From Prosthecobacter sp. (GTDB lineage Bacteria > Verrucomicrobiota > Verrucomicrobiia > Verrucomicrobiales > Verrucomicrobiaceae): a DNA stretch of 32,303 nucleotides. Under the pieces are notes generated by a model. The model was given only the letters and a program-made list of their open reading frames with translations, had not been told where the DNA came from and did not search any database. Shown here piece after piece: positions 1 to 14,180 of the stretch (position 1 is its first letter; every line of letters starts with the position of its first letter). The translations under genes were made by a program, and so were the position numbers. The stretch covers positions 1 to 32,303 of the forward strand of contig JAUREI010000026.1 of NCBI GenBank assembly GCA_030827515.1, written 5' to 3'.

Positions 1-1959
1 AACCCCCACGGTGTCGAGGGTGACGCGGCGCAGGAATTCGAGGTCCTCGGTCAGCGGCGCGGCGGCGATGGTTTTGCCGGCCGTCTCATACGCGGCCCCC
101 TGCGCGATCCAGTCGGTCAGCAACTTCCGCTGAGCCTCGGTCAAGGGATCGCCGGTGGGTGGCATGATGTCGTCGCCGGCCCCGGGGTGGATGGCGTGGA
201 GCAACCGGCTGGCGTCGGGCTGCCCTGGAACGATGGCGGGCTCGCCGGATTCACCCCCCTGTTTCGCGGCCGCGAGCGTGTTCAGGCGCAGGCCCCCCTT
301 GGCCTTCTCGGCATGGCAACGGTAGCAGTTGTCCGCAAGGATGGGCCGGATCTGTTTGGCAAAATCAATGCCGCCGCGGCTGGCCTCACCCGCCGCATTT
401 TCCTTGGCCCAGGAGGCGGCCAGCAGTTCATCGATGCCTCCCGCCGGTGCCGGACCACCGACCACCGCCTTCCTGGCCTCCACATGGCGCTGCGCCCAGT
501 AGTCGTCCTGTTTGGCGCGCAGGGCGAGACGCCGGCGCTGATCCAGCCCGCGATAGTGATCCAGACGCTCCCGCCGGTAGGCGTCCCAGCCGTCGTCGGT
601 GAGCGGAACGACGCGTGCCGTGGGCGACAGCAGGGCGAACGAACCGTCCGCCCCGCGCAGGCTCAGGCTGGTCTCGCCAAGGGTCGGCCGCACCCGGCCG
701 TTGCCGGCGAGCATTTCCAGCACAAAGACATGCGGCTGTCCGTCGCTTTCGAGGACAATCCTCTGCTCGCGATCCCCCGGGCCAAGAAGACGCAACGCGG
801 GGCCGGCTCCCTCCGCCTCGGCATGTTCGACCTCGTTGTGGGCGCCGCCGCCCGTGTTTCCGAAGGCGATGTCGGCAAGGATCCTGCCGTCCATCCAGAG
901 TCGCCCCTGGCCTCGCACGCGCAGCAGCAGTTCCTGCTTCCCGGCAGGCAGCGTCAGCTGCGCCAGGGCGCGCAGCAGATAGGGGTTGCTGCGGGCGGCG
1001 CGCACGCCGCTGTCGGTGTATTTCTGGACGATCTGGAAAAAGCCAAAAGCCTCCTCCTCATAAACATCCACCGGTTGCGGAAACTGGCGCGGCCACTTGG
1101 CGGCCTTGCCGACGTTCTCGACGATCTCGACGCGCACCCGCTTCTGCGGCAGGCCTTCCGCCGGCAGGACCGGCACATAGGGCTCGACCGGATAACGCGC
1201 GACGATCGTCGACTCCGGCAGAGCCGCGCGATAGAGGCGCACCTCATCCAGCAGGCCGTCGAAGGTGACGCTCGCCTGCCGGTTCATCGAGGTGCCAAGC
1301 CAGATCTCATCGTTGTCGACCACCGGCGCGCGCTGGGTCGCGCCACCCATGTCCCAGGCGCCTGGGACCGCCTCGCCGTCGATCCAGCCGCGCACCGATT
1401 CCGGTTTGCCGAACTGGTAGGTGAAGGCGACGTGGTGCCAGCCGCTGGCGGGGGCGATGCCGGCCGTGGTGGTCCAGCGGTGCCAGTCGCCGGCGAACGC
1501 GCCCTCGGGACGGCTGCGAAACAGGAAGCTCAGGCGCAGCACGCCGCCGCCATCCCACAGGCGCAGGCCCCAGTTCTGGTTGTTGGTCTGCTGCCCCGGG
1601 TTGCCCGTGCGCCCCTTGCCGAGCAAATACACGTTGCCGCCCTTGGGCGCCGAGGCGGGATTGACCCAGGCCTCGATCGTGATCGTGTCGCCGTTGTCAA
1701 AGTCATAGGGGCTGTTCGCGCCCGGATCCGGCACGCGGATGAAGCCCTGCTTGGCGGCGTCAAGCCGCACCGCCTTGTTGCCCTCGGCCAGATGCTTGAA
1801 CTGCGCGCGGGAGGGGCCGTCCTGCTGAAACAGCACGCCGCCCTCGGCACGGCCGAGATCGGGGGCGGGGCCGTCAAAGGTCCATTGCGCCACCGGCTCG
1901 GCCGCGATGAGGACGGAGGTGAGCGCAAGGGCGCAGGTCGGAAGGGCAAACCAGTTCAT
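1..1959 (-). CDS. LamG-domain / planctomycete-type cytochrome c / DUF1549 protein, 3' end beyond the left edge
   Basis: Partial gene: 653 codons are visible and the frame is still open at base 1. It starts with ATG at 1959, followed by a signal peptide (about residues 1-20, ending in Ala-Ala). Residues about 20-250 look like a LamG/concanavalin-type lectin domain (ITIEAWVNP, GWHHVAFTY, FDGLLDEVRLYR). A middle segment (about 260-500) I cannot assign. A planctomycete-type cytochrome domain follows, with the heme motif CYRCH at about residues 545-549 and the context IRPILADN before it and MPPTGDPLT after it. The last visible residues (EDLEFLRRVTLDTVG) are the start of a DUF1549 domain, so DUF1549 and DUF1553 should lie beyond the edge. 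Families of this type are abundant in Planctomycetes and Verrucomicrobia and are exported, but their reaction is not established. It lies 156 bases downstream of the sigma-factor module on the same strand. Confidence 0.88.
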   Translation of the reverse strand, partial: MNWFALPTCALALTSVLIAAEPVAQWTFDGPAPDLGRAEGGVLFQQDGPSRAQFKHLAEGNKAVRLDAAKQGFIRVPDPGANSPYDFDNGDTITIEAWVNPASAPKGGNVYLLGKGRTGNPGQQTNNQNWGLRLWDGGGVLRLSFLFRSRPEGAFAGDWHRWTTTAGIAPASGWHHVAFTYQFGKPESVRGWIDGEAVPGAWDMGGATQRAPVVDNDEIWLGTSMNRQASVTFDGLLDEVRLYRAALPESTIVARYPVEPYVPVLPAEGLPQKRVRVEIVENVGKAAKWPRQFPQPVDVYEEEAFGFFQIVQKYTDSGVRAARSNPYLLRALAQLTLPAGKQELLLRVRGQGRLWMDGRILADIAFGNTGGGAHNEVEHAEAEGAGPALRLLGPGDREQRIVLESDGQPHVFVLEMLAGNGRVRPTLGETSLSLRGADGSFALLSPTARVVPLTDDGWDAYRRERLDHYRGLDQRRRLALRAKQDDYWAQRHVEARKAVVGGPAPAGGIDELLAASWAKENAAGEASRGGIDFAKQIRPILADNCYRCHAEKAKGGLRLNTLAAAKQGGESGEPAIVPGQPDASRLLHAIHPGAGDDIMPPTGDPLTEAQRKLLTDWIAQGAAYETAGKTIAAAPLTEDLEFLRRVTLDTVGV

Positions 1960-2115
1960 GGGGAGCGTGGACAAATCTACGCTGTGCCCCCGGTGGTTCT
2001 TCGGCAGAGGCCCCATTTCGAAACCTGCGCAACGAGGACAAGAGTCCACACTGTCCCTCGATGGACTGGCCTCTCATGGAAGGAAGCCAGAGGAGAGACC
2101 GCGGCGTCAAATGCA

Positions 2116-5100
2116 TCACCGCGCCGCCTCTCTCAGCAAGCCCGTCCAGGGAAGATATTCGACGCCGTATTCGCCAACCGGCAACCACAGCCCGCCCGCA
2201 TCAGGCCGTGCACGATCCAGCCGCGGATGGAGATTCACCGGGGTCACGTAGTCTCCGGGATGGGGACGGAGGCCCTCGGCCGTGAGGTTGGCGACGGCGA
2301 GGCTACCGTGGGCTGGCGCCAGAAGCAGGTCACCCACAACATGCAGGGCGTGGGGAGCCTCGAGCAGCTCCCAACCACGCCCCTGCGACAAGCGCCCGGT
2401 GGGTGCGTCGTAGATCACCTCGGCAACACCCGGCTGCTCCGGATGACGGACCACGAACAGGCGGGACGCGGCAGCCGCCGTTGGTGTCCAAGCCGGCAGG
2501 TCAAGTGCCAGCTCATCCAACTGCCAGACCGAAAGGCCATCGTAGGCACAGGCTTGAATGTACCGGCCCTGGGTCCCGGCGCTCCCCTCGACTTCCGTCA
2601 TCAGAATGGCTCCCTGGGCATCGGCGCGGTCCATGCCCACCAGCCGCCCCGGCAGATTCACCGGCGGCCGAACCAGCAGTTCTGAAGGACGACAATCCAG
2701 CACATGGAGACGGGATTGAAGGCCTGCGGCAGCAGACCGGCCCCTCGCAGTTCGGCCGCGCCCGCGACGACTGGGCCGGGCCGGAATCTCCGAAGTTGAG
2801 GATTCGTCGTGGCTTGTGAAAATAAACCCCCCGCCGGCAAAGGTTCGCCCCACCGACTGAAGATTCTTGGCCGCCGGCAGCATCAAAACCGGCAAGGCCG
2901 AGGTTTGATCCCCCAAAAGCACCGGGCAAAAGCAGCTGGCACTGCCTGACCGCCAGAGGATGGGCGGCGAAATGGCGAGCCTGGCGGCGGGAACATTCCC
3001 GCTGTTGACGGGCAGAGCCACAACGGGTGTCAGGGTTTGCAGTCGCACTTCTCCCGTGATTGCCGGGAAAGTGATGCGCTGCCACCACCAGCGATCGTCA
3101 AAGGCCTGCGCCGGCAGATGCCAGACCAGCAGGTCGGGCCGCGGAAAGAGAGCACGGGCGTTATCCAAATCGAGGTTCCATTCCGTGGCCTTGACCGGCT
3201 GGTCCAACGTCGCCACGGGAATGAGGTCGGGCAATGGTCCCAAATCCAACACCCAGGTGCGCAGGATTCCCTCTTCGCCCGCCGCAAGCCACTGCGCCAG
3301 GTAGATGCGGTTTCCCACGCGCTCCAAACCCACCACGGGCGCATCCTCGATCTCCAACTCCACAAGCGGTTGGTCGGGTTCATCCGCACGGCTTACCACC
3401 ACCTGAGTGCGCATCGCCGGTGCTGCCTGTGCCACTCCCATGAGAAAAGGACCGACACGGAAGCTGGATTGGGGGCCGTCATCCACCTGAATGAGGAATC
3501 CCTGATGTTCGAGAACACGATCGACACGCCACGCCAGGGTCACGCGCGTGGCATCGCCTCCGGTCCGCGGCGTCGCCAAAAGCTCCTGCCCCGAAACCGT
3601 GACGTAATGCGAACCCACCAGTCTGCCTCTGCGCGCACGATTGGGATGCGGCAAGACCTGGAGTGCCGACAGTTCCTGGCGATCGACGGCCAGAACTTGA
3701 ACCTCACTTGACATGCCGGTGCTGTCCCATTGTTCAAAGGGCACCATCAACACGTTCTGTTCCCGATCAAAGAAAACCGCCTTTTCATCGTAGTTGGCCT
3801 CGCTCCAGCTGGGCTTGCCGGCCTCGCCAAGGGAAACACGGGAGAGCAGGGCGGGAGCATGGGCATCCCCCACGTCGAAGAGGGAAGCGGTCACGCGGCC
3901 TGCCTCGACACCGACGGCGATCAAGCGATCCCCCATGGGTTCCAGGTAGGTCGACCATCCCGGGATTTCCAGCACGCCCTGCAGACTGGGCATGGCCGGA
4001 TCCTCGAGATTGACGACAAAGAGAGGATCCACCTGGCGGAAAGTCACCACATAGAGACGTGAGCCATCAAAGCGGGTGGCATGCAGGCTCTCGTCGCGGG
4101 CACCCTCGAGTTCCAGCCTGGCAAGGGGCTGCAGTGAGGCCCCATCGAGGGGGAAGGTTTCCACCCAGGTCTCGCTGCGGCCGTTTTGCCAGGAAACACT
4201 GACACAGGCGATGGCATTGCCCACCCTGGCCATCTTGAACTTGTCCTGAAGGTGGCCGGCCGTGGCAAAGGTTTTGCGCAGGATGGGGCCCGCTTCAGGC
4301 TGGACGGCGAGCACCTGCAGCTGCGGAGTCCAGGTGCCCGCCGCCACCCCCCCGACAAGCAGGTGGCCTTCCGCTGCCTGCAGGCAGCTGGCCTGCCCGG
4401 GCAAACGGACCGGCGGGTGGACAACGGGCGTTTCCAACGCGCGGAGATCCAGGGTGTGCAGCCGCGCTTCAGGGGCCCAGGTGGCCCAGGAGTGACGGAT
4501 GAGACTCATCGTGAAAACGCCCGCCTCATCGCCGACGGGCGCGGACGACTCGAGATGCCAGGACTGCGTCAGCACATGGAGATGACCGCCCACCAAACGA
4601 CTGTCAACAACATGTCCGCCCAGAGGCAACTCCGCCGTCAGACTTGGCACGCCATCGCGGATGGCCACGAGAAAAACAGCGGCCTCCCCGGCCGTCTCCC
4701 GGCGATTGGAGCGCCCCAGCAGTGCCACCGCAGAGCCGGTTTCATCGAGGACAAAAAGTTGCTCGCCACTGGCGGGCAGGCGCAGCGCGCCGGTGCGACG
4801 AGGCAGGGCGGGATCGCTCATGTCAAACACCTGCAACCCGCGAAATTGGTTGAAGAAAAACAAGGTTTCACCCGCCATCTGCCAGATGTCAGGCTCGGTG
4901 ACGGCAGCCGCGGCTGCGTCTGTCTGAGCCCTTGCTGCCGTGGCGCTGACAACGGCCACGGCCTGCGCTCCCTGCAGCAGCCTGCTGCCTGCAACACTGT
5001 CGGCAATCATTTCACCTGGAGCTTGAGGGAGAGGCCGGGCTTTGAAGGCTTTTTTACCCCGGATGAAACGGCTGGGAAATTTGGCATTCTCGTAGGCCAC

Positions 5101-5394
5101 CAGCCGCAGGTTGCGGCGTGCCACGCCTGCCGGCAGCGTGATCGCCACCTGGCGTTTGGGCAGTTTCGTGAATGCGGTGAGATGCCAGACCCGAAGAGGG
5201 CGCCAACCAGAACCCTGGCGGACTTCCAAGACCAGCTGCTTCAGCTTGGCGGGCACATCCGCATGATATCGGGCCTGGCCAAACCAACGGCTGCTCCGGA
5301 GGGCAATGGCATGAGGCTGTTCCGTGGCGGCGTTGGCAGTGGCCAGCAGGACGGAAACGACAGAGAGACTGAGAAATACGCGGAAGGGATTCAT
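2116..5394 (-). CDS. Large secreted beta-propeller protein
   Basis: 1092 residues, with an N-terminal signal peptide (about residues 1-22, ending ATANA). From about residue 165 it resembles the secreted C-terminal beta-propeller family (Beta_propel, distantly WD40-like): the entry segment reads EPDIWQMAGETLFFFNQF and is followed by LQVFDMSDP, the typical 'item, value, current state' repeat. Further blades recur along the chain (LHTLDLRALETP, LYVVTFRQVDPLFVVNLEDP, TASLFDVGDAHAP). A low-complexity Arg/Ser-rich stretch near residue 880 separates a last group of blades. No catalytic motif is evident; a binding, scaffold or sensor role is the simplest inference. Its ATG overlaps the stop of the upstream anti-sigma-like gene as ATGA, so the two are almost certainly co-transcribed and probably translationally coupled. 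It may be the extracytoplasmic partner of that membrane protein, but this is inference from gene order. Confidence 0.85.
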   Translation of the reverse strand: MNPFRVFLSLSVVSVLLATANAATEQPHAIALRSSRWFGQARYHADVPAKLKQLVLEVRQGSGWRPLRVWHLTAFTKLPKRQVAITLPAGVARRNLRLVAYENAKFPSRFIRGKKAFKARPLPQAPGEMIADSVAGSRLLQGAQAVAVVSATAARAQTDAAAAAVTEPDIWQMAGETLFFFNQFRGLQVFDMSDPALPRRTGALRLPASGEQLFVLDETGSAVALLGRSNRRETAGEAAVFLVAIRDGVPSLTAELPLGGHVVDSRLVGGHLHVLTQSWHLESSAPVGDEAGVFTMSLIRHSWATWAPEARLHTLDLRALETPVVHPPVRLPGQASCLQAAEGHLLVGGVAAGTWTPQLQVLAVQPEAGPILRKTFATAGHLQDKFKMARVGNAIACVSVSWQNGRSETWVETFPLDGASLQPLARLELEGARDESLHATRFDGSRLYVVTFRQVDPLFVVNLEDPAMPSLQGVLEIPGWSTYLEPMGDRLIAVGVEAGRVTASLFDVGDAHAPALLSRVSLGEAGKPSWSEANYDEKAVFFDREQNVLMVPFEQWDSTGMSSEVQVLAVDRQELSALQVLPHPNRARRGRLVGSHYVTVSGQELLATPRTGGDATRVTLAWRVDRVLEHQGFLIQVDDGPQSSFRVGPFLMGVAQAAPAMRTQVVVSRADEPDQPLVELEIEDAPVVGLERVGNRIYLAQWLAAGEEGILRTWVLDLGPLPDLIPVATLDQPVKATEWNLDLDNARALFPRPDLLVWHLPAQAFDDRWWWQRITFPAITGEVRLQTLTPVVALPVNSGNVPAARLAISPPILWRSGSASCFCPVLLGDQTSALPVLMLPAAKNLQSVGRTFAGGGFIFTSHDESSTSEIPARPSRRGRGRTARGRSAAAGLQSRLHVLDCRPSELLVRPPVNLPGRLVGMDRADAQGAILMTEVEGSAGTQGRYIQACAYDGLSVWQLDELALDLPAWTPTAAAASRLFVVRHPEQPGVAEVIYDAPTGRLSQGRGWELLEAPHALHVVGDLLLAPAHGSLAVANLTAEGLRPHPGDYVTPVNLHPRLDRARPDAGGLWLPVGEYGVEYLPWTGLLREAAR

Positions 5395-6812
5395 GGTTCG
5401 TTTGGCGGGGCGGGTTGAACAGGAACAAGAAGAACGATCTGGCGGGCGCCGGTTGGATTTGGCGCCAGAACGCCAGATTCCACCAGGGATGCCGTTGCGG
5501 AACTGCCAAGCAGGACCGGTTGATCGGCATTCAAAGCGACGGTTGGGACGGCGGATTGCGCCGTTGCCACGGTCGGCGAGCCGACGACTTCAACGACCAG
5601 TTGGAGTCCCTCCCCTGCAGGCCGGTAAAGGATCCTGGAAGCTTCCGTCCTGCTGACCATCGGTGCGGCGGTGAAACGGGCGACAGGGCCGGAAAAAATG
5701 CCGGAATTCAAAAGCTGTTTGGCCTCGTACTCGCCCAGATTTTGGTCCGCCGCCGCTTCGCCGCCGGGGGCAGCTTCCTCGGCCACGTAAAGTTGATACG
5801 CCGGTGCCGGCATCAGGGCCAGTGCCTGACGGGACTGCGTGAGCAGGAGCAAGGCGGCACGCTGCCCCGGGGAGAGACGTGCGTTCCAACCTTCGGATTC
5901 TTCAGGGTTCACCGCAATGCCCAGCCGCTGTGCATCCTCCCTCAGGGCAGCGAGAGCGACCTCATCCTGCTCGGCCGGCCGACCGTCCGTACTGAAGCGT
6001 CCGGCAAGGACCTCCAACAGGCTGCTCTGCGAAGCCGGTTGCGGATAGATTTCCTCACGGAGGACAACGCTGACGCGGTGTTCGTCCGTCTCGACATCGC
6101 AGCCTGCCAGTGCCGCCAGAACCTGCACCGCCTTGAGGAACGAAATGGGCCCGGAGGTCAGGCTCACCATGCGGCCTGCGGCATTGCGTGGGATGATGAC
6201 CCGAAGGTCACCCATGCGGCCGCGCTGGTCCAGGAGGCGCAGCTGTCCTTGAAGCAAGCCGATGGCGCGATCCAACGGCTGCCGGTGCAATTCAACACTC
6301 GTCAGGTAAAACGCGTCCAGCCGTTGATTCAAGGGTTCAGCGGCAGCACCGTCACTGGCGGGTTTTGGCACCGGATCGGGCGCCATCTGCCGGTGAGTGA
6401 CGGGTCTCACGGGAACATGGGCTGGTTCGCTGTTCCGCGAAGCCTGCAGGCCCTGACGCCTTGGGGCCAGCTCCACTCCCGCCTCAAGTTGCCACCAGAG
6501 AACGGAAACCACCGCCAGCGCCGCCGCCAAGCCGAATGCAATGGGTTTCCATGCACCGCCGGGCGCAGCGGCAGCCTTGGGCAAGGGGCGTGACGACTCG
6601 ACCGTGGATGCATGGGAAACAACCCGAGTCTTGAGCGCCAGGGCGTCGGCCAAGAGGCTCTCAAAGCGCGCAAGCTCGGCAAACTGGGTCGCTCGATCGG
6701 GATTCCCGGCAAGGATTTGCCACAGTTGTTCCGCCCGCTCCGCGGAGCAGCCACCTCCTAGCCATTCCAGGGCCAGGGCTTCAAAAGCTTCGGAATCCAG
6801 GGTCGAGTGCAT
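5391..6812 (-). CDS. Putative anti-sigma factor: one-pass membrane protein with periplasmic secretin/STN-like domain
   Basis: 473 residues from the chosen ATG at 6812, which lies just after the sigma-factor stop; an in-frame GTG at 6854 would add 14 residues and overlap the sigma gene. Residues 1-60 resemble the cytoplasmic part of FecR-type and other anti-sigma proteins from this phylum (a short helical segment, NPDRATQFAELARF). One membrane helix spans about 90-108. After a Pro-rich linker, residues about 168-255 (LDRAIGLLQGQL, RMVSLTSGPISFLKAVQVLA, RVSVVL) look like a secretin/TonB short N-terminal (STN) fold; the rest is unassigned and Ala-rich. The role as anti-sigma factor is inferred from position behind an ECF sigma gene and from topology, not from a firm family match. 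It is translationally coupled to the beta-propeller gene by an ATGA overlap. Confidence 0.7.
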   Translation of the reverse strand: MHSTLDSEAFEALALEWLGGGCSAERAEQLWQILAGNPDRATQFAELARFESLLADALALKTRVVSHASTVESSRPLPKAAAAPGGAWKPIAFGLAAALAVVSVLWWQLEAGVELAPRRQGLQASRNSEPAHVPVRPVTHRQMAPDPVPKPASDGAAAEPLNQRLDAFYLTSVELHRQPLDRAIGLLQGQLRLLDQRGRMGDLRVIIPRNAAGRMVSLTSGPISFLKAVQVLAALAGCDVETDEHRVSVVLREEIYPQPASQSSLLEVLAGRFSTDGRPAEQDEVALAALREDAQRLGIAVNPEESEGWNARLSPGQRAALLLLTQSRQALALMPAPAYQLYVAEEAAPGGEAAADQNLGEYEAKQLLNSGIFSGPVARFTAAPMVSRTEASRILYRPAGEGLQLVVEVVGSPTVATAQSAVPTVALNADQPVLLGSSATASLVESGVLAPNPTGARQIVLLVPVQPAPPNEP

Positions 6813-6820
6813 GCTCTGGT

Positions 6821-7342
6821 TCAGATGAATTCCCTCAGCCGGCGTGTCACGCACTCCCTCAGCCGCCGCCGCAGGCGGCTGAGCGTTTGATAAAGGGCGT
6901 CGGCACCGGACTGATAAGCGCGGGCGATTTCCTCCATGCAGAGATTTTCCTCGTAGCGCATCCGCAGCAGCCGGCTGCTGTGAGCCGGCAGTTCCTGCAG
7001 ACAGCAGGTCAGGGCCTGCTCACGGGCTCTCCAGTTTGCGGAGGTCGGACCCGGTTCAAAGGCCCCGGAGAGCTGTTCGATCTGCTCCAGAGAGAGAGAT
7101 TCGGGCAACCGCGCCCTGTGGCGGCGGTCCTCCCAGATTTTCCTCACGGCCACGCCGCGGGCCCAAGCCCCAAAAGAGCGGTCAGGATCGTAGCGGTCAA
7201 AACTCTTCCAGAGCACAACCGCCACCTCCTGAAACACATCCTCGCGGGCAGCAGGCTCGGGAATCATGGACCCGATGAAAGCCCGGAGGTCTGGCTGTGC
7301 CGCAAGAAAGAGCGGCAAAAACTGTTCTGGATCGGCGGGCAT
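6821..7342 (-). CDS. ECF-type RNA polymerase sigma factor (Rhodopirellula/Verrucomicrobium-like subfamily)
   Basis: 173 residues, the usual length of an ECF sigma factor. Region 2 is at about residues 10-75: a helix with AREDVFQEVAVVLWKSF (compare the DxxQEvf..w core), then FGAWARGVAVRKIWEDRRHR, the region 2.3-2.4 promoter-melting and -10-reading helix. Region 4 is at about 105-165, with LPAHSSRLLRMRYEENLCMEEIA and a helix-turn-helix in which two small residues precede LYQTLSRLRRRLREC. Region 3 is absent, as expected for ECF factors. The short, Arg-rich C-terminus and these signature helices fit the subfamily described from Rhodopirellula and Verrucomicrobium. It is the first gene of a three-gene module, 8 bases ahead of the putative anti-sigma gene, and is likely autoregulated, though I could not identify its promoter. 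Confidence 0.93.
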   Translation of the reverse strand: MPADPEQFLPLFLAAQPDLRAFIGSMIPEPAAREDVFQEVAVVLWKSFDRYDPDRSFGAWARGVAVRKIWEDRRHRARLPESLSLEQIEQLSGAFEPGPTSANWRAREQALTCCLQELPAHSSRLLRMRYEENLCMEEIARAYQSGADALYQTLSRLRRRLRECVTRRLREFI

Positions 7343-7405
7343 GGACTTCTGAATGCACTTTGTGGCCGCACCCGCTTTTCTGACACATTTTTAGCACCTT
7401 GACGC

Positions 7406-7434
7406 AAAAAACCCGCCGAGTCGTCCTCCGGGGC
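7406..7434 (-). terminator. Possible Rho-independent terminator of the 14180-7446 gene block
   Basis: On the minus strand a GC-rich imperfect stem (CCGG pairing with CTCGG around an eight-base loop) is followed by GGG and six T (T-tract at 7406-7411), 12 bases after the stop of the phosphoesterase-like gene. The stem is short, so this is moderate evidence. If real, it separates that block from the sigma-factor module, whose promoter must then lie in 7343-7405. Confidence 0.4.
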
Positions 7435-7445
7435 CGCCCTCGCCG

Positions 7446-8591
7446 TCAGCGTGCGCGCTTCTTGAAGACTTGGCGGTCGAGCACGCGACCATCGTCGAGG
7501 GCCTTCAATTCCGACCTCAGGGTGCCGGCGGCGCGGTCCAGGGTCAGCAGCTGGTAGCTGGCCGACTTGTCCGAGAAGGCGGCCTGCGGATCGTGACCGA
7601 AGGTGCCGTTGCCGCGCACCGAGCTGTTCGTGTAGATCATGCCGTCGACGACGCTGCGCTCGGCGTGGTAGCACTCGCCGGAGATGGCCAGCGTGCCTTT
7701 TTCGAGAAGCCGCTTCCAGCCGCCCTCGGCGTGGCGGCGCACGGTGCTGCTGGTCTCGCCATAGACCGTGACGACGAAACCCGCCCTCGTGTCGTTCATT
7801 GTCTGCTCGAACCACTGGAACTGCTCGGAGTCCCTGCCGAAGGCGTTGCAGGCCTGGTTCGGCTGGCCGAAGTCGCCGGTGTGGCTCATGTCAACGCTGA
7901 TGAAGCGCAGGTCGAAGTCCGGGATGTCCCAGGCCCAGAGCCACTCCCTGCCGGGCAGGGCGAAGAACTTGCGGTACCCGGTGGCGTCGATGTCGTAGCC
8001 GGGCTCTTCCAGGCTGAGGCCGTTCGGGCGAATCTTGCGGTCGAGGTTGCCGAGCGACACCATCAGGGGCGTGCTGCGAAAAAGATCGGCCTGGGTGTCG
8101 ATCGCCGTGCTGTGCGACTTCGTCGCCTCCTTGTCCGCCTGGGTGGCAAACTGGTATTGCATGGCCGTGTCGCCCGCCGAGAGCAGCAGGTGCGGGTCAT
8201 CCTGGCGGATGGCATCCAGCTTCACCTTTGCGTCGGCCCGCAGGTTGGCGAAGACGGCGATGCGCAGCACTTTCGAGGGATAGCCCTTGAAGCGGTGGAT
8301 CTCCGAGACCTGATCGCCGCTCTTCACGCGGTAGTGATAGACGACGTCCTTCTGCGGAATCGGGATCTCGACATGGTGCAGGGTGCGGCTGCCCTCCATC
8401 TTCACCATTTCACCGAGCTGCGGCGAGGTGCCGAATTCGACCACGGAATCGCCCGGATTCGTGGTTTCCCACGAGATGACGATCTTCGAGTTGTCCGGCG
8501 ACTGATGGGTCATCCAGATGCGCTCGACACTGGCCATGACGAACGATGACAAAAGCAGCAATAGAGCGGCGGTGAGAAGTCCGGTTTTCAT
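7446..8591 (-). CDS. Secreted purple-acid-phosphatase-like protein with degenerate metal site
   Basis: 381 residues with a signal peptide (about 1-20, LLLLSSFVMA). Residues 22-105 match the fibronectin-like N-terminal domain of purple acid phosphatases (KIVISWETTNPGDSVVEFG, then VVYHYRVKSGD). Residues 110-340 follow the metallophosphoesterase layout but the ligands are largely gone: the first Asp motif reads VFANLRAD, the GD motif survives at 140-141, GNHE is reduced to GNLD at 181-184, the next His site reads VVTVYGETSS, and the usual GHxHxYERS is GECYHAERS at 305-313. So about two of seven expected ligands remain. It is probably not an active two-metal phosphatase; a binding role or a different reaction is possible. 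The gene is intact, with no frameshift. It is the last of four same-strand genes, 59 bases after the ceramidase-like gene. Confidence 0.82.
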   Translation of the reverse strand: MKTGLLTAALLLLLSSFVMASVERIWMTHQSPDNSKIVISWETTNPGDSVVEFGTSPQLGEMVKMEGSRTLHHVEIPIPQKDVVYHYRVKSGDQVSEIHRFKGYPSKVLRIAVFANLRADAKVKLDAIRQDDPHLLLSAGDTAMQYQFATQADKEATKSHSTAIDTQADLFRSTPLMVSLGNLDRKIRPNGLSLEEPGYDIDATGYRKFFALPGREWLWAWDIPDFDLRFISVDMSHTGDFGQPNQACNAFGRDSEQFQWFEQTMNDTRAGFVVTVYGETSSTVRRHAEGGWKRLLEKGTLAISGECYHAERSVVDGMIYTNSSVRGNGTFGHDPQAAFSDKSASYQLLTLDRAAGTLRSELKALDDGRVLDRQVFKKRAR

Positions 8592-8650
8592 GGGAACGCG
8601 CGACGACGAAGCAGGGAGACGGTGATTGAGTGATGGATTCGCGGCGCCAT

Positions 8651-10060
8651 TCAGCGCAGGCGCTCAAACAGTTCCTCGAGACCGGCGACGATCTTCGTGG
8701 AAGCATGGACCTCCAGGCAGCTGGAGCGTGCGCGCCAGGTTTCATAGCCGCCGAGCGCGTGCTGTTCCGGGGTTGGCAGGTAACCGTGATAGGCGTTGGC
8801 GAGCGAGACGGTGAAGGTGGGCGCGTGGCGCTTTTTCAGGTCGAGCCCGATCTCAACAAAGACCTCCGCGGGAATGGCCGAAACCCGCAGGCTGCCGATC
8901 TTAAAGACCTGGAGCGGTGCCGACACCGTTTTCGGGAAATCGGCGAGCAGCACCGTCTCGCGCGCATAGACCTGCTCCATCGTTTCCATGCGTGGGGACA
9001 GCTTCGACTGCTGCATGACGGCGCGCGCGGCGATCACCTCATCCGGCGTTGGCAGGCGCAGGCCGAGTTCGACTTCCTTCTGTGCGGCGGCCAGCGGAAC
9101 GTCGGCTCGATGTTCGACCTTCTTCACCGCCGTCGCCACGGCCTGGGCGACCTCATCGGCAACGATCTGGATGCGGCCGTAGGGTGGCTGCTTTTCCTGA
9201 CCCCCGCGGAAGTCGATGTTGTTGATGTCGCCGCTGGTGCCGTTCGACATCAGTCCCACGAAGGGCGGCTCCGCGTTCCCCGCGCCAAGCAGTTCGCCGA
9301 TGCGTTCCGAGAACACGCCGAAGTAGTCGGCGGAAATGTGGCCCGGTCCGACACCGCCGACGTAGTGCAGCGAGTAGTTGGCGAGCAGGGCGAGCGGGCG
9401 CCCGTCGGCAGTCTGCACGCTGAGAAAGGCGACTTCGGGATCGGTCGGACCGGCGGGCTCCACCAGGTTCGGATTCCTGACGCCGGGATTGGTCCTCACC
9501 TGATCGGTTGTGACCCCGAGCGGGGTCGGCGGGATCGTGCCCGGCTTCAACTTCCAGCGACGGTTGAAGACCTGGCCCGGCACGGAGGCGCCGCCATGCC
9601 CCAGCTTCGCCGGCGCCAGGTTGTTGAGGGCGCGGCGCACGCCATCGGCGATGCGACGCGCCAGGAAGCGCTGATACATCGGGTCGGGCTCGCTTTGGCC
9701 AACCGCCTGGGCGGTTCCGCAGGAGTGGGAATGGGTGGCCGACATCATCAGGTTTTCCACCGGCAGGCCGGTGGCCTCATGCACGAGCTTTTTCGCGGCA
9801 TCGAAAATGCCGCGCCCGATCACACAACTGTCGACGACGACAAAGACGAGCCGCGTTGTGCCGTCGTCGAGCGCCAGGCAGCGCGCATGGAGTTCGTCAT
9901 GAATGGAGGTGGCCTTGCCATCCTGAAAGCCGCCGTTGATGGAACTGCCAAGCGGTGGCGTGACATTGCTGGTGGCGGCGCCGGCGCGAAACACCGGCTC
10001 GGCAGCGGACAGGGCGGTGGCGGCGAGCAGGCCGGCGGTCTGCAGGAGGATCGAGCGCAT
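8651..10060 (-). CDS. Neutral/alkaline ceramidase-like secreted hydrolase
   Basis: 469 residues from ATG at 10060, chosen because it begins a clean signal peptide (MRSILLQTAGLLAATALSAA); an upstream start would overlap the previous gene's stop. The body matches the N-terminal domain of neutral/alkaline non-lysosomal ceramidases: FRAGAATSNVTPPLG at about 24-38, HDELHARCLALDDG at 54-67, VVVDSCV, the conserved MSATHSHS at about 106-113 with probable zinc-ligand histidines 110 and 112, and ANYSLHYVG with a third probable ligand. Family enzymes hydrolyse the amide of ceramide, but in Planctomycetes and Verrucomicrobia this domain is common in proteins of unknown substrate, and the C-terminal ceramidase domain is lacking here, so the substrate is unknown. 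It follows the DUF1501 gene by 43 bases in the same probable operon. Confidence 0.87.
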   Translation of the reverse strand: MRSILLQTAGLLAATALSAAEPVFRAGAATSNVTPPLGSSINGGFQDGKATSIHDELHARCLALDDGTTRLVFVVVDSCVIGRGIFDAAKKLVHEATGLPVENLMMSATHSHSCGTAQAVGQSEPDPMYQRFLARRIADGVRRALNNLAPAKLGHGGASVPGQVFNRRWKLKPGTIPPTPLGVTTDQVRTNPGVRNPNLVEPAGPTDPEVAFLSVQTADGRPLALLANYSLHYVGGVGPGHISADYFGVFSERIGELLGAGNAEPPFVGLMSNGTSGDINNIDFRGGQEKQPPYGRIQIVADEVAQAVATAVKKVEHRADVPLAAAQKEVELGLRLPTPDEVIAARAVMQQSKLSPRMETMEQVYARETVLLADFPKTVSAPLQVFKIGSLRVSAIPAEVFVEIGLDLKKRHAPTFTVSLANAYHGYLPTPEQHALGGYETWRARSSCLEVHASTKIVAGLEELFERLR

Positions 10061-10103
10061 CCGAGCGATACGTCCGGCAGCGGGGGCTTCCTGCGCCGAC
10101 GGG

Positions 10104-11597
10104 CTACACAAGAATCTCGCGGATGACATTGCCGAAGTCCTGCTCCAGACGCTGGCGACCGGGGTGCATCATGCGGTGGTTGAGACCGAGCTGATGCAGT
10201 ACGGTGGCGTGCAGGTCGGTCACGTACTGGCGGCCCTCGACCGCATGGAAACCGAGTTCGTCGGTGGCCCCGTGGACGAAGCCGCCCTTGGTGCCGCCTC
10301 CGGCCATGAAACAGGTGAAGCCATGCGGGTGATGATCGCGGCCCGAGCCGCTGACGTTCGCATCGCGGAACTCCGCACCCGGCGTGCGGCCAAATTCGGT
10401 GCCCCAGACCACAAGCGTTTCCTCCAGCATGCCGCGCTGCTTGAGGTCGTGGATCAGACCGGCAATGGGCTGGTCGATTTCCGCGCACATCGGCGGCATG
10501 AGCCGGGCGATGTCCTTGTGATGATCCCAGCGGCCGGCGTTGCCGCTGTAGCCATGGAACAGCTGCACGAAGCGCACGCCCTGCTCGACAAGGCGACGCG
10601 CGGCCAGGCACTGGGATCCGAAGGCAAGGCACTCCTTGCGGTCGAGGCCGTAAAGGCGCTTCACATGTTCCGGTTCCCCGGAGAAATCCATGATGCCGGG
10701 CACCGCCATCTGCATCTGGAAGGCGAGTTCATAGGCTTTGAGCCGGGCGTTCAGCTCGGCGTCGGTGGGATAATCGATGCCCGAGAGCTGGTTCAGTTCG
10801 CCGATGAGGCTGAAGGCCTCGCGCTGCTCCTCGAGCGTCAGCTTCGGATCGGCCGGATGGACGAAGGAGAGCGGGTTTTTCGGGTCAACCTTCAGTCGCA
10901 CGCCACCGTATTCCGGACCGAGGTAGGCGCTGCCAAAGGTGAAGGAGCGCCCGCAGCAGTCCGCACTGGGTTCGCCCAGCACGACAAACTCGGGCAGGTT
11001 CGCATTCAGGGTGCCAAGTCCGTAGCTGGCCCAGGCGCCAACCGTGGGATGCCCGGTGTCGCCGATCTTGCGGCCCGTGTGGAAGGTGAGCTGGGCGCCG
11101 TGGTTGTTGTCGATCGTCCACATCCCGCGCAGGAAGGAGATGTCGTCCACCGCGCCGCCGATGTGCGGAAAGAGATCACTCACCTCAATGCCGCTCTGGC
11201 CATGCTTGCGGTGGCCGGCGATGAGCGGCAGGATTTTCTTGAAGACCTCGCGCTTCTCCTTGCCCGGTTCGGCGAGAATCTGGTTGATCCTGCCCTGGTC
11301 GGCCGCCTCCCGGTAGGGCGTCTCGTCAATCGACTTGCCGGCATACTTCGTGAGTTCCGGTTTCGGATCGAAACTTTCGACGTGGCTGGTGCCGCCGATC
11401 ATGAACATCCAGATCACGGACTTGGCCTTCGCCTCGCCGGTTTGCCACGCGGAAAGCACCTCCTGCGTCGAGGGAGAGGCCTGGGCGACACCGTCGCGGA
11501 AGAGCATGGCGTTGAGGGCGAGGCCGGTGAAGCCCATGCCCGTGTCGAGCAGGAACTGGCGGCGGGTGCCGGTGCAGCCGGGGCGTTTCGGTCTCAT
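10104..11597 (-). CDS. DUF1501 protein, Tat-exported sulfatase/phosphatase-like fold
   Basis: 497 residues. A twin-arginine signal lies at residues 10-35 (TRRQFLLDTGMGFTGLAL), so export of the folded protein is expected. The rest is a full-length DUF1501 domain: MIGGTSHVESFDPKPEL at about 66-82, the stretch IGGAVDDISFLRGM, and near the C-terminus VVWGTEFGRTPGAE with HHPHGFTCFMAGGG, typical family signatures that resemble the metal-site layout of the alkaline-phosphatase superfamily. The enzymatic activity of DUF1501 proteins is not established. The gene starts 3 bases after the stop of the DUF1549/DUF1553 gene, and this pairing is characteristic of Planctomycetes and Verrucomicrobia, which implies that the two act together. 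Confidence 0.94.
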   Translation of the reverse strand: MRPKRPGCTGTRRQFLLDTGMGFTGLALNAMLFRDGVAQASPSTQEVLSAWQTGEAKAKSVIWMFMIGGTSHVESFDPKPELTKYAGKSIDETPYREAADQGRINQILAEPGKEKREVFKKILPLIAGHRKHGQSGIEVSDLFPHIGGAVDDISFLRGMWTIDNNHGAQLTFHTGRKIGDTGHPTVGAWASYGLGTLNANLPEFVVLGEPSADCCGRSFTFGSAYLGPEYGGVRLKVDPKNPLSFVHPADPKLTLEEQREAFSLIGELNQLSGIDYPTDAELNARLKAYELAFQMQMAVPGIMDFSGEPEHVKRLYGLDRKECLAFGSQCLAARRLVEQGVRFVQLFHGYSGNAGRWDHHKDIARLMPPMCAEIDQPIAGLIHDLKQRGMLEETLVVWGTEFGRTPGAEFRDANVSGSGRDHHPHGFTCFMAGGGTKGGFVHGATDELGFHAVEGRQYVTDLHATVLHQLGLNHRMMHPGRQRLEQDFGNVIREILV

Positions 11598-11600
11598 GGA

Positions 11601-14180
11601 TCAGCGCAGGGTGATGAAGTCGTTGTGATTGAAGAGGGCGCCCAGGAAGTGCTGGCGCCGCCTCAGGCCATCCCCGCCAGATTTGGCGAGGAACCCGGCG
11701 CTGACGCGCCGTTCCGCATCGCTTGGCGGCCGGTTCAGGATGTGTTCGAAGGCGGCGGTGACGAAGACCATGTCATCCGTGCCGACCTCCCGCGCGAGAC
11801 GCGCCTCCAGCGCCACGGAGGCATCCAGCGTCACGCGGCTGTTGGCCAGTGCCAGCGCCTGGTGCGGCTTGATGCTGCGCTCGCGCTGGTAGCACTCGTT
11901 GGGGCGCGCGCCGTCAAAAATCTGCACGAGTTCCGCCTGGGTCTCCTGCGCGTGACGATGGTAGATGCTGCGGCGGCGACTCGTCTCGGCGGCCTCGCTG
12001 GCGAGTTCCGGACCTCCAGAGGTGCCATCCAGCAGGCCCGCCACATGCAGCAGGTTGTCGCGCACGGCCTCGCCCTCCATGCGGCGCACCGGCGCCCGCC
12101 AATACCACCGGTTGTCGGGATCAACGGCATCATTCGCGACCGCAGGGCCGCTGGCACCGGCACGCCGGTAAACGGCGCTGCCCAGGATGAGACGGTGCAT
12201 GTGTCGCAGATCGTAACCGCTTTCCATGAACTCGGCCGCCAGCCAGTCGAGCAGCGCCGGGTGCGTGGGTTTTTGGCCGTTGGCACCGAAGTCATCCGGC
12301 GTGGCCACCAGGCCCGTGCCAAAATGGCGGATCCACAGGTGATTGACCGCAACGCGGGCAAACAGGGTGTTCTGCGGCGAGGTGAGCCAGCGCGCGAAGG
12401 CGAGGCGCCGGCCGCTGCTGGTCGCGGGATAGGTCGTGACCTTGCGCGGTTGATAATCGGTGGCCTTCACCGCGGACTGCATCGCCTCCTCCGCCGCAGC
12501 GAGGGCTTTCGTGGCCGCCGTTGCATTCGTCTTTGCCGTGACGATGGCCTTTTTCACGGCCGTCGTCAGCGGCTTGGTGGCCATGGCCTTTTGCAGGGCG
12601 TCCTCCGCCCTGTCCTTCTCCGCACGGGCCTCGGCCAGCGCCGTTTGGCGCTGCAATTCCGCCACCTTCACGGCGCGGGCCTGCCAGTCGGCGGACTTTT
12701 TGTTCATGCCACCGTCCTCGAGCGCCTCCAACTCCAGTTGCTGCTCAAGCGTCCGGCGTTTCATCTCGCGCAATTCCCGGTCCGCCAGCGATTCCACGGC
12801 GGCAAGCATGGCCGCCTTGTAGTGGTCGCTTTTCTCCGGCTGCTGGGCCACCAGCGGCAGGCTCACGGGCTTCACCTTGAGGTCGCCGCCAAACAGGGCC
12901 GGCACGCCCGGAGCAACGGGCTTGTCCTTGATCGGAAACCGCTCGTCGCCGCGCTGGAAGAGGTAAGTGACCGCGGTCAGGGTCTTGTCGTAGGCGCGAG
13001 GCAGGCCGTCCTTCGCCACATCCATCTGGCCGGGCACCGGGTCGGTGCGCACCTGGTAGGGCTCGAACACCGCGCGAATCGCATAATAGTCGGTCTGCGG
13101 AATCGGGTCATACTTGTGATCGTGGCACTTCACGCAGTTCATCGTCAGCCCCATGAAGGCCTTGCTGGTGTGCTCGACGATGTTGTCCATCCACTGCAGG
13201 CGGTCGCTCTGGAAATTGCGCGCCAGGTAGCCGGTGGCACGCACCGCGTCCTCATCGGTCGGCGCCAGTTCATCTCCCGCCAGCATCTCCTGCACCATGC
13301 GGTCGTAGGGCTTGTTGGCGTTCAGCGACTCGATGATCCAGTCGCGCCAGCGCCAGATGTGCGGCTGGCTCAGGCGCACCGCGCCCTTGTAGCCCTCCCA
13401 GTCGGAGTAGCGCCAGATGTCCATGAAATGCCGGCCCCAGCGCTCGCCATGACGCGGGTCTGCCAACAGCCGGTCGGCAAGCCGTCGCACTGCTGCATCC
13501 GGTTCAACCGCGTGGTCGGCGGTGAATGCCGCCACCTCTGCGGGCGTCGGTTGCAGGCCGGTCAGATCCACATGGATGCGCCGAGCGAGCTGGGCGGCGG
13601 TGGCCTCGCCCAACGGCTTCAGGTCGCGCGCCGCCAGCTGTTCGTTGATGAAGACGTCAATTGGATGGGGCACCCCCGATGGCGGCAGTTCGGGACGCGT
13701 CACCGGCTTGAAAGGCTGCCATGGATAGCGCTTCAGAAAGGCGGCCAGCGCCTCCTCCCTGCCGCCCAGTTGAGCCAGCGAATCCGGCTTCACCCTGGCG
13801 TCGCCCGGATGGCCCCCGAGGAGGATCTCCGCGAGGTTCGCCACGCCATCGCCATCGCTGTCCCGGCTGCCGGCCTGTTGCAGCCGATCCGAAAGCGCCA
13901 CTTTTTTGCCCATCCCCGCCAGTTCCCGGCCAAAGGCATTGTGCGGAAACTCCTCCAGGCTTTCCGGCGCATGGTTAGAGGACGGCAGATGGCAGAGGTC
14001 GCACTTTGTCAGCGTTGCTGGCAAAAAATGCTCAAAGTGGTTCGCCGCCGCCTTTTGATTGGCGGGGGTCGCCAGCACCGTCCCAGGGCCGAGTGCCAGC
14101 ATCAGGAGGATGCGAGTCACGGCCGAATGGCTGTCTGGGACGGGGTTTTGCACAGGCACAATACGGGCCTTCCATGGCAT
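11601..14180 (-). CDS. DUF1549/DUF1553 (PSD1) planctomycete-type cytochrome protein
   Basis: 859 residues from ATG at 14180; an in-frame GTG at 14120 would place the hydrophobic signal (TRILLMLALGPGTVLA) at the N-terminus and may be the true start. A first heme motif CDLCH is at residues 60-64, followed by a Ca-loop-like DSDGDGVANLAE at 107-118 as in thrombospondin type 3 repeats. DUF1549 spans about 170-380, with LTGLQPTPAE, RHGERWGRHFMDIWRYSD and a second heme motif CVKCH at 349-353 followed by DHKYDPI. Residues about 451-572 are a charged, Ala-rich probable coiled coil. DUF1553 spans about 585-855 (RRLAFARWLTSPQN, RVAVNHLWIRHFGTGLV, DDFGANGQKPTHPALLDWLA). It is probably a periplasmic or surface c-type heme protein of unknown reaction. 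First gene of the block that continues with DUF1501. Confidence 0.93.
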   Translation of the reverse strand: MPWKARIVPVQNPVPDSHSAVTRILLMLALGPGTVLATPANQKAAANHFEHFLPATLTKCDLCHLPSSNHAPESLEEFPHNAFGRELAGMGKKVALSDRLQQAGSRDSDGDGVANLAEILLGGHPGDARVKPDSLAQLGGREEALAAFLKRYPWQPFKPVTRPELPPSGVPHPIDVFINEQLAARDLKPLGEATAAQLARRIHVDLTGLQPTPAEVAAFTADHAVEPDAAVRRLADRLLADPRHGERWGRHFMDIWRYSDWEGYKGAVRLSQPHIWRWRDWIIESLNANKPYDRMVQEMLAGDELAPTDEDAVRATGYLARNFQSDRLQWMDNIVEHTSKAFMGLTMNCVKCHDHKYDPIPQTDYYAIRAVFEPYQVRTDPVPGQMDVAKDGLPRAYDKTLTAVTYLFQRGDERFPIKDKPVAPGVPALFGGDLKVKPVSLPLVAQQPEKSDHYKAAMLAAVESLADRELREMKRRTLEQQLELEALEDGGMNKKSADWQARAVKVAELQRQTALAEARAEKDRAEDALQKAMATKPLTTAVKKAIVTAKTNATAATKALAAAEEAMQSAVKATDYQPRKVTTYPATSSGRRLAFARWLTSPQNTLFARVAVNHLWIRHFGTGLVATPDDFGANGQKPTHPALLDWLAAEFMESGYDLRHMHRLILGSAVYRRAGASGPAVANDAVDPDNRWYWRAPVRRMEGEAVRDNLLHVAGLLDGTSGGPELASEAAETSRRRSIYHRHAQETQAELVQIFDGARPNECYQRERSIKPHQALALANSRVTLDASVALEARLAREVGTDDMVFVTAAFEHILNRPPSDAERRVSAGFLAKSGGDGLRRRQHFLGALFNHNDFITLR

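Follow-up and report, generated by a model that had tools for sequence, protein, structure and literature searches.

A predicted autoregulated ECF sigma factor and STN-type anti-sigma candidate linked to a double beta-propeller protein in Prosthecobacter

The window analysed here, a stretch of 32,303 nucleotides from Prosthecobacter sp. which constitutes an entire contig (JAUREI010000026.1, our C92) from an assembly of 315 contigs totalling 4.05 Mb (96% complete), carries three head-to-tail open reading frames (ORFs) on the minus strand. These code for an extracytoplasmic function (ECF) sigma factor (6821–7342), a single-pass membrane anti-sigma candidate with a periplasmic STN domain (5391–6812) and an exported beta-propeller protein (2116–5394). 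The sigma factor and the anti-sigma candidate probably form an autoregulated transmembrane switch that controls exported, probably surface-located, proteins. An earlier annotation made from the sequence alone (the original prediction) had described the three genes as tightly packed, and re-reading the ORFs confirmed both coordinates and packing: an 8-base gap (6813–6820) separates the sigma stop codon from the anti-sigma ATG, and the anti-sigma TGA and the propeller ATG overlap in an ATGA at 5391–5394.

Promoter motif and predicted regulon

Upstream of the sigma gene lies a predicted bipartite operon promoter (7358–7385, minus strand), consisting of a −35-like TGTCAG (7380–7385), a 17-base spacer and a −10-like CAAAG (7358–7362), which ends 15 bases before the sigma ATG. 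The motif TGTCAGR-N15/16-CAARG was present in all 19 readable sigma upstream regions from 20 loci (L074 starts at a contig edge), with a spacer of 16–17 bases between TGTCAG and CAARG and, in the 15 loci measured, 14–36 bases between the motif end and the sigma start codon. Searched as a plain pattern (TGTCAGRN{15,16}CAARG), it was found at 116 sites in 16 genomes carrying the sigma gene (17 of them at sigma genes) versus 24 sites for the reversed pattern, and at 63 versus 22 sites in 16 genomes of the same genus without the sigma/anti-sigma pair (hereafter the pair). Forty stretches, the best-looking part of the 99 non-sigma pattern sites, were inspected; as a chosen subset they do not constitute a count, and our site counts rest on profile searches. 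The profile, R1, was built from 16 sigma promoters, recognised the window's own promoter with an E-value of 3e-6 and gave a stronger contrast between genomes than the pattern alone. As R1 scored at most the best 150 candidates per genome, its site counts are lower bounds. At E ≤ 0.01, at least 38 sites were found in 19 sigma genomes (the pair genome G007 was omitted because of contig breaks), 20 of which were located at sigma genes (the 16 training promoters and 4 others) and 18 elsewhere. No site reached this threshold in 19 same-genus genomes without the pair (best E 0.0152), a control set that includes one genome with an anti-sigma-like paralogue (G014), one with a secretin match (G035) and one with the propeller (G044).

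The strongest single result is that the propeller gene, judged from its upstream sequence, keeps this promoter on leaving the operon. In all three genomes in which the propeller lies elsewhere (G003, G004 and G001), the motif is found directly before the unlinked propeller gene. With ~0.00045 sites expected per 700 bases of one strand, the chance of three such sites is ~1e-10 at mean density, and the propeller thus appears to belong to the regulon. No motif was detected within 700 bases upstream of five propellers that have no adjacent sigma pair (L076–L080), nor upstream of those of L085 and L110 when searched from rough start positions.

Target genes start within ~110 bases of the 18 non-sigma sites. 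They encode a small exported protein (four genomes), an Ig-like protein (four times; 653 residues where complete), FG-GAP-type proteins of ~1170–1200 residues (four genes in three genomes, with a fifth at E 0.026), Calx-beta proteins (two) and, once each, an fn3 protein, a very long DUF11/Calx-beta protein, an exported protein without family and the cytoplasmic enzyme purU (L304, G037:C207; E 8.6e-7). The purU site is perhaps the remnant of a lost target. Signal peptides were recognised by eye in 17 of the 18 targets, and a crude mechanical export test was positive for 14 of 18 targets versus 93 of 313 background genes (p 6e-5). From their domains, the targets are probably located at the cell surface. 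When a profile built from the FG-GAP-type proteins was run over the 68 genomes of the family survey described below (at most the best ten candidates per genome), it recovered at least five near-full-length proteins, all with a site; the 400 C-terminal residues are shared by many other proteins, including some of the window's own genome. Overlapping inverted motif sites were seen upstream of the small exported protein at two loci (L236 and L239; G040:C131 and G041:C94).

The three encoded proteins

The sigma factor (173 aa, 6821–7342, minus strand) was called an ECF sigma factor in the original prediction, and it matches TIGR02989, the Rhodopirellula/Verrucomicrobium family, over the full length of the model (residues 6–165, E = 2.6e-39) with 134.7 bits, above the curated cut-off of 124.55. 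Region 2 (PF04542) is likewise above its cut-off (41.6/24), while both region-4 models score below theirs (18.3/25.7 and 17.2/24.1). Identity with 17 aligned homologues is 53–60%.

The anti-sigma candidate (473 aa, 5391–6812, minus strand) starts with the ATG at 6812; a GTG start at 6854 was rejected, as the alignment gives it no support. The protein matched nothing in Pfam and NCBIfam even at E ≤ 1. An alignment of 22 sequences (A1) served as the basis of the AlphaFold2 model, which supports the membrane and periplasmic parts that had been proposed for it. Residues 4–77 (6582–6803) form a helical candidate for the cytoplasmic anti-sigma domain with a weak match to RsiW (5wuq_C; Z 7.0, rmsd 4.9); zf-HC2 matches were found in 3 of the 22 homologues (best E 0.018) and not in the window protein. 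A transmembrane helix (residues 91–110, 6483–6542), seen in the model and as a hydrophobic stretch in the alignment, is followed by residues 112–155 with pLDDT below 50 and no strands, and the STN region begins directly after.

Residues 168–255 (6048–6311) adopt the STN fold in the model. The pLDDT over residues 161–330, averaged in ten-residue blocks, is 78–97 (mostly ≥86), and the order of elements over residues 173–251, beta-alpha-beta-beta-alpha-beta-beta, is that of the STN topology. The single Foldseek match at E ≤ 0.001 was the N-terminal domain of the secretin GspD. VIA-align returned the anti-sigma factor PupR (6ovk_R; Z 9.5, rmsd 1.9 over 73 residues, 22% identity), BDI_1681 (4m0n; Z 8.2, rmsd 1.8 over 72 residues) and EscC, PilQ, FoxA, FpvA and PupA (Z 7.0–8.7, where values below 8 can reflect mere common arrangement). 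Its top match was a phage tail lysin (Z 9.9), so that Z alone does not single out PupR. A search with A1 against the Protein Data Bank (PDB) gave nothing at E ≤ 1, and the STN assignment therefore rests on the model and on the comparison with secretins given below. The original prediction had held that such a domain normally belongs to the outer-membrane receptor rather than to the anti-sigma protein; the fold itself was borne out by structure prediction, while the premise is only partly right in view of PupR (6OVK) and BDI_1681 (4M0N). With PupR among the best structural matches, an STN domain in an anti-sigma factor has a precedent: PupR carries a periplasmic STN domain together with a juxtamembrane beta-solenoid (CJM; PMC7186176). 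The STN domain is followed by an alpha/beta extension (residues 256–347, 5772–6047) that is conserved in A1 and matches no family, with block pLDDT of up to 96 dropping to ~64–81 toward its end, and by a tail (residues 348–473, 5394–5771) that varies between homologues, is modelled mostly at low confidence and finishes in a proline-rich stretch. Passenger-associated-transport repeats are not supported as a general feature of this tail, weak matches being present in 2 of 22 homologues only (best E 0.031). Five paralogues (L086–L090) match the periplasmic part only and have neither an anti-sigma domain nor an adjacent sigma match; they share no constant neighbour and are possible STN partners.

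In sequence, the STN stretch resembles pilus secretins of the Amuc_1098 family, with a pairwise E-value of 6e-7 (L024) and an hhalign probability of 84.9 (E 6.4e-6, columns 157–263). This stretch is all that is shared; the anti-sigma candidate has no secretin pore domain and, as noted, no Pfam match. A search of the window's own genome, limited by the sensitivity of the model, gave one PF07660 match, below cut-off, inside an Amuc_1098-family pilus secretin (NF042912 above cut-off). By BLAST this secretin showed nothing significant against the anti-sigma candidate (E 1.2 at best, and E 8 where the STN domain is covered). Within the reach of this search, in a genome 96% complete, we found no TonB-dependent transducer with an N-terminal signalling domain: the third gene of the module is the propeller, and the only PF07660 match is that in the pilus secretin.

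The third protein (1092 aa, 2116–5394, minus strand) is the large exported propeller that had been predicted, matching PF09826 with E = 7.2e-52 and 177.3 bits (gathering cut-off 22.4), and the AlphaFold2 model adds a second propeller to it. The model comprises an N-terminal beta domain (residues 42–120, 5035–5271), a first propeller (residues 168–610, 3565–4893) with matches to YxaL (Z 22.5), BamB and WD40 proteins (both Z ~20), and a second propeller (residues ~616–1082, 2149–3549) read from its all-beta structure; when the whole chain was compared, multi-propeller proteins such as DDB1 matched with TM-scores of just 0.14–0.30. Neither Pfam nor the model revealed an STN domain in this protein. 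Our literature search on PF09826 returned only a pipeline paper.

Distribution of the module and neighbouring genes

Conservation was surveyed in 68 genomes of one family, 24 of which match the anti-sigma candidate and 27 the propeller. Among the 20 genomes carrying the pair, tblastn of the fetched loci showed the order sigma, anti-sigma, propeller in 16 (the window and L061–L075, the propeller of L075 being cut by the contig end). Identities of the other 15 to the window are ~55–59% for sigma, 31–36% for anti-sigma and mostly 36–41% for the propeller (lower in L067 and L069). An order kept in 16 genomes at such identities is more than chance, and it extends to a second genus (g5), which supports the original prediction. 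In the four further pair genomes, contigs break at the locus (G007; L092 and L093) or the propeller lies elsewhere (G003, G004 and G001). Thus, all 20 genomes with sigma and full anti-sigma contain the propeller, versus 7 of the 48 without the pair (Fisher p 1e-11, relatedness ignored). Of the four other matches to the anti-sigma candidate, that in G014 is a paralogue lacking the sigma gene and three are pilus secretins, called by NCBIfam in G009 and by sequence likeness in G028 and G035.

Scanning the genome collection with an alignment of propellers yielded 75 loci, 13 of which have sigma and anti-sigma adjoining the propeller; among the other 62, some are truncated at contig ends. Eleven of the 13 are named Verrucomicrobiaceae, Prosthecobacter or Brevifollis and two only Verrucomicrobia, and the complete module is present in the cultured strain Brevifollis gellanilyticus NBRC 108608 (L105). 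In a propeller tree of 78 rows (quick search, midpoint root; copies of fewer than 500 residues, such as L075, L113 and L151, and duplicates excluded), all sigma-linked propellers fall in one 28-row clade (SH-aLRT 100). Also in this clade are two copies from Chromatiaceae and five from Prosthecobacter that have no sigma pair next to them, a composition pointing to losses of the pair and to a transfer into purple sulfur bacteria. The Chromatiaceae propellers (L110, L111, L113 and L151) are 44–62% identical to the query in their best segment, and three of the four are broken into pieces; lateral transfer without the sigma pair is probable. At six loci of other Verrucomicrobiota (L119, L127, L138, L148, L157 and L169), the propeller follows an ABC ATPase gene, often itself preceded by a GntR-like gene, and is followed by a pilin-like gene and, in most cases, by one for an ABC-2-like membrane protein, these functions having been judged by eye from the L138 sequences. 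When A1 was run as a profile over 387 genomes of the phylum (at most the best four candidates per genome), at least 15 matched, 12 of them outside the family. Matches outside the family were partial, within model positions 3–253, with a sigma gene beside 9 of 13 loci, and the module is therefore not claimed outside the family.

Around the module, positions 1–14180 of the window (minus strand) hold Laminin_G/PSCyt1, ceramidase-like, DUF1501 and PSCyt2/PSD1 genes, and the cytochrome/DUF1501 genes had been put forward as targets of the circuit. This idea is weakened: across the window R1 found only the sigma gene's own site, the eight other hits being at chance level (E 0.75–9.9), and the genes are very common, with at least 36–57 DUF1501 matches per genome in 20 genomes. 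Of 20 loci, 7 have a DUF1501 or PSCyt/PSD1-type gene (clusters c5 and c7, identified by Pfam from one member each) close to the module, and in 4 of these 7 it lies downstream in the same orientation. As the Laminin_G and PSCyt1 gene lies 157 bases past the propeller on the same strand, it could be reached by read-through from the operon. At the other end of the window, a large ORF with passenger-associated-transport repeats (PF12951; 27003–32303, minus strand) runs off the contig edge.

Proposed mechanism, alternatives and known systems

From the autoregulatory site, the unlinked propellers and the absence of R1 sites at E ≤ 0.01 from pair-less genomes, the promoter is predicted to belong to this sigma factor. 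We propose that the bipartite TGTCAGRAA/CAARG promoter preceding the operon is recognised by the operon's own sigma factor, which would be held by the helical domain at the N-terminus of the anti-sigma candidate. Some event in the periplasm, at the STN domain and the extension behind it, would then destabilise the anti-sigma protein, most likely through regulated proteolysis, as in FoxR, an STN anti-sigma factor for which protease release is reported (PMC11637429). The freed sigma factor would make more of its own operon and of the exported proteins, the propeller being transcribed within the operon or, when unlinked, from its own copy of the promoter. The propeller, which is the sole partner found in every pair genome, most likely acts in the periplasm or at the outer membrane, either by feedback on the anti-sigma protein or by helping to place the exported proteins, and is not to be taken as a proven ligand receptor.

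Several observations weigh against this model. The assignment of the middle protein as an anti-sigma factor is that of a candidate, based on position, architecture and the weak RsiW match. In the window's own genome R1 finds the operon's site only, and the FG-GAP-type profile finds no full-length target, so that for this genome the wider regulon is predicted from its relatives. The motif before the unlinked propellers of G003 and G004 was seen by the pattern and not by the profile, and that of G001 has an E-value of 0.041. Without the sigma genes, pattern density is 1.09 versus 0.60 sites per Mb, a modest excess, and many of the pattern matches fall within genes or have no exported gene after them. 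At E-values from 0.01 to 1 the profile contrast fades, with 35 rows from sigma genomes versus 21 from controls, the 18 non-sigma sites represent ~9 gene families, several of them repeated in close relatives, and the best-scoring of these sites (G037:C207) is the one before purU. Moreover, the seven genomes examined each contain 3–7 TIGR02989 sigma factors above cut-off and 16–40 matches at E ≤ 0.001; another sigma factor could therefore share the promoter.

The alternatives concern mainly what the propeller does and what the STN domain touches. The propeller may be pure output, an outer-membrane biogenesis or surface-assembly factor of BamB-like shape without a sensing role, which we regard as a real possibility although we lean against it. 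Its own promoter when unlinked, BamB among its best matches and its wide occurrence without an adjacent sigma gene would all fit; however, those matches tell little about function, and the propeller is present in every pair genome whereas other targets are found in few, as would not be needed of an optional output. Conversely, along the lines of the original prediction, the propeller could be the ligand sensor, binding a molecule from outside and handing the signal on through direct contact with the STN domain, as FecA does with FecR. Presence in 20 of 20 pair genomes, export and the lack of any STN match in the window's genome besides the secretin are compatible with such a role, which nevertheless seems unlikely to us: Pfam and the model place no STN domain in the propeller, the unlinked copies have the promoter themselves, and relatives in other orders occur without adjacent sigma or anti-sigma genes, some among ABC ATPase, pilin-like and ABC-2-like genes, so that the propeller seems to serve a separate function.

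A different signal source would be the type IV pilus secretin of the Amuc_1098 type, or a like export machine, touched by the anti-sigma STN domain and releasing the sigma factor depending on whether the machine is free or blocked. In its favour are the sequence likeness to the Amuc_1098 family (E 6e-7; hhalign 84.9), the location of the own genome's only STN match in that secretin, the pilin-like gene adjoining the propeller in other Verrucomicrobiota and the mutual binding of STN domains described in PMC11637429. Yet the likeness may reflect common descent only, PupR is structurally closer than the secretins listed, the own-genome secretin has no significant BLAST match (best E 1.2; over the STN domain E 8), and no connection between the secretin gene and the regulon emerged, no search aimed at it having been made. 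We regard this explanation as quite improbable. More speculative, and very doubtful, is a combination in which the state of a pilus or secretion pore, read through the secretin-like STN domain, and the propeller as an obligatory periplasmic co-regulator together gate the giant exported proteins; if true, export capacity would gate transcription without any TonB receptor.

In the RpoE/RseA/RseB system, as is proposed here, an autoregulated sigma operon encodes a membrane anti-sigma factor and a third exported protein. RseB is not known to contain a propeller, and the targets predicted here differ in being large exported proteins. PupI/PupR/PupB and FoxI/FoxR/FoxA of Pseudomonas likewise combine an ECF sigma factor with a single-pass anti-sigma factor bearing a periplasmic STN domain (PMC7186176, PMC11637429). 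Unlike PupR, the modelled anti-sigma candidate has no CJM beta-solenoid between membrane and STN domain; ~215 residues follow its STN domain, whereas in PupR and FoxR the STN domain ends the protein; no TonB-dependent transducer is located next door; and exported Ig/FG-GAP-type proteins take the place of iron uptake as predicted targets. The PUMA3 system (VreA/VreI/VreR) of Pseudomonas aeruginosa also signals without a TonB receptor barrel and has its STN domain in a small protein, the receptor component (PMC2729926), while here the domain lies in the anti-sigma candidate with the propeller as partner. BDI_1681 of Parabacteroides (4M0N), a member of another phylum, resembles our protein in having an STN fold in a putative anti-sigma factor. 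Searches of the open literature for comparable ECF systems of Verrucomicrobia gave none, returning instead a paper on ECF41. Compared with PF09826 proteins, the propeller protein has two propellers and an N-terminal domain, and among the loci seen it is sigma-linked only within one Verrucomicrobiaceae-centred clade. For one verrucomicrobial TIGR02989 sigma factor there is now a concrete promoter together with a predicted regulon, and each can be tested directly. The STN domain is seen in another anti-sigma layout, with no PupR solenoid and no TonB transducer in sight, and the PF09826 propeller family gains a regulatory context.

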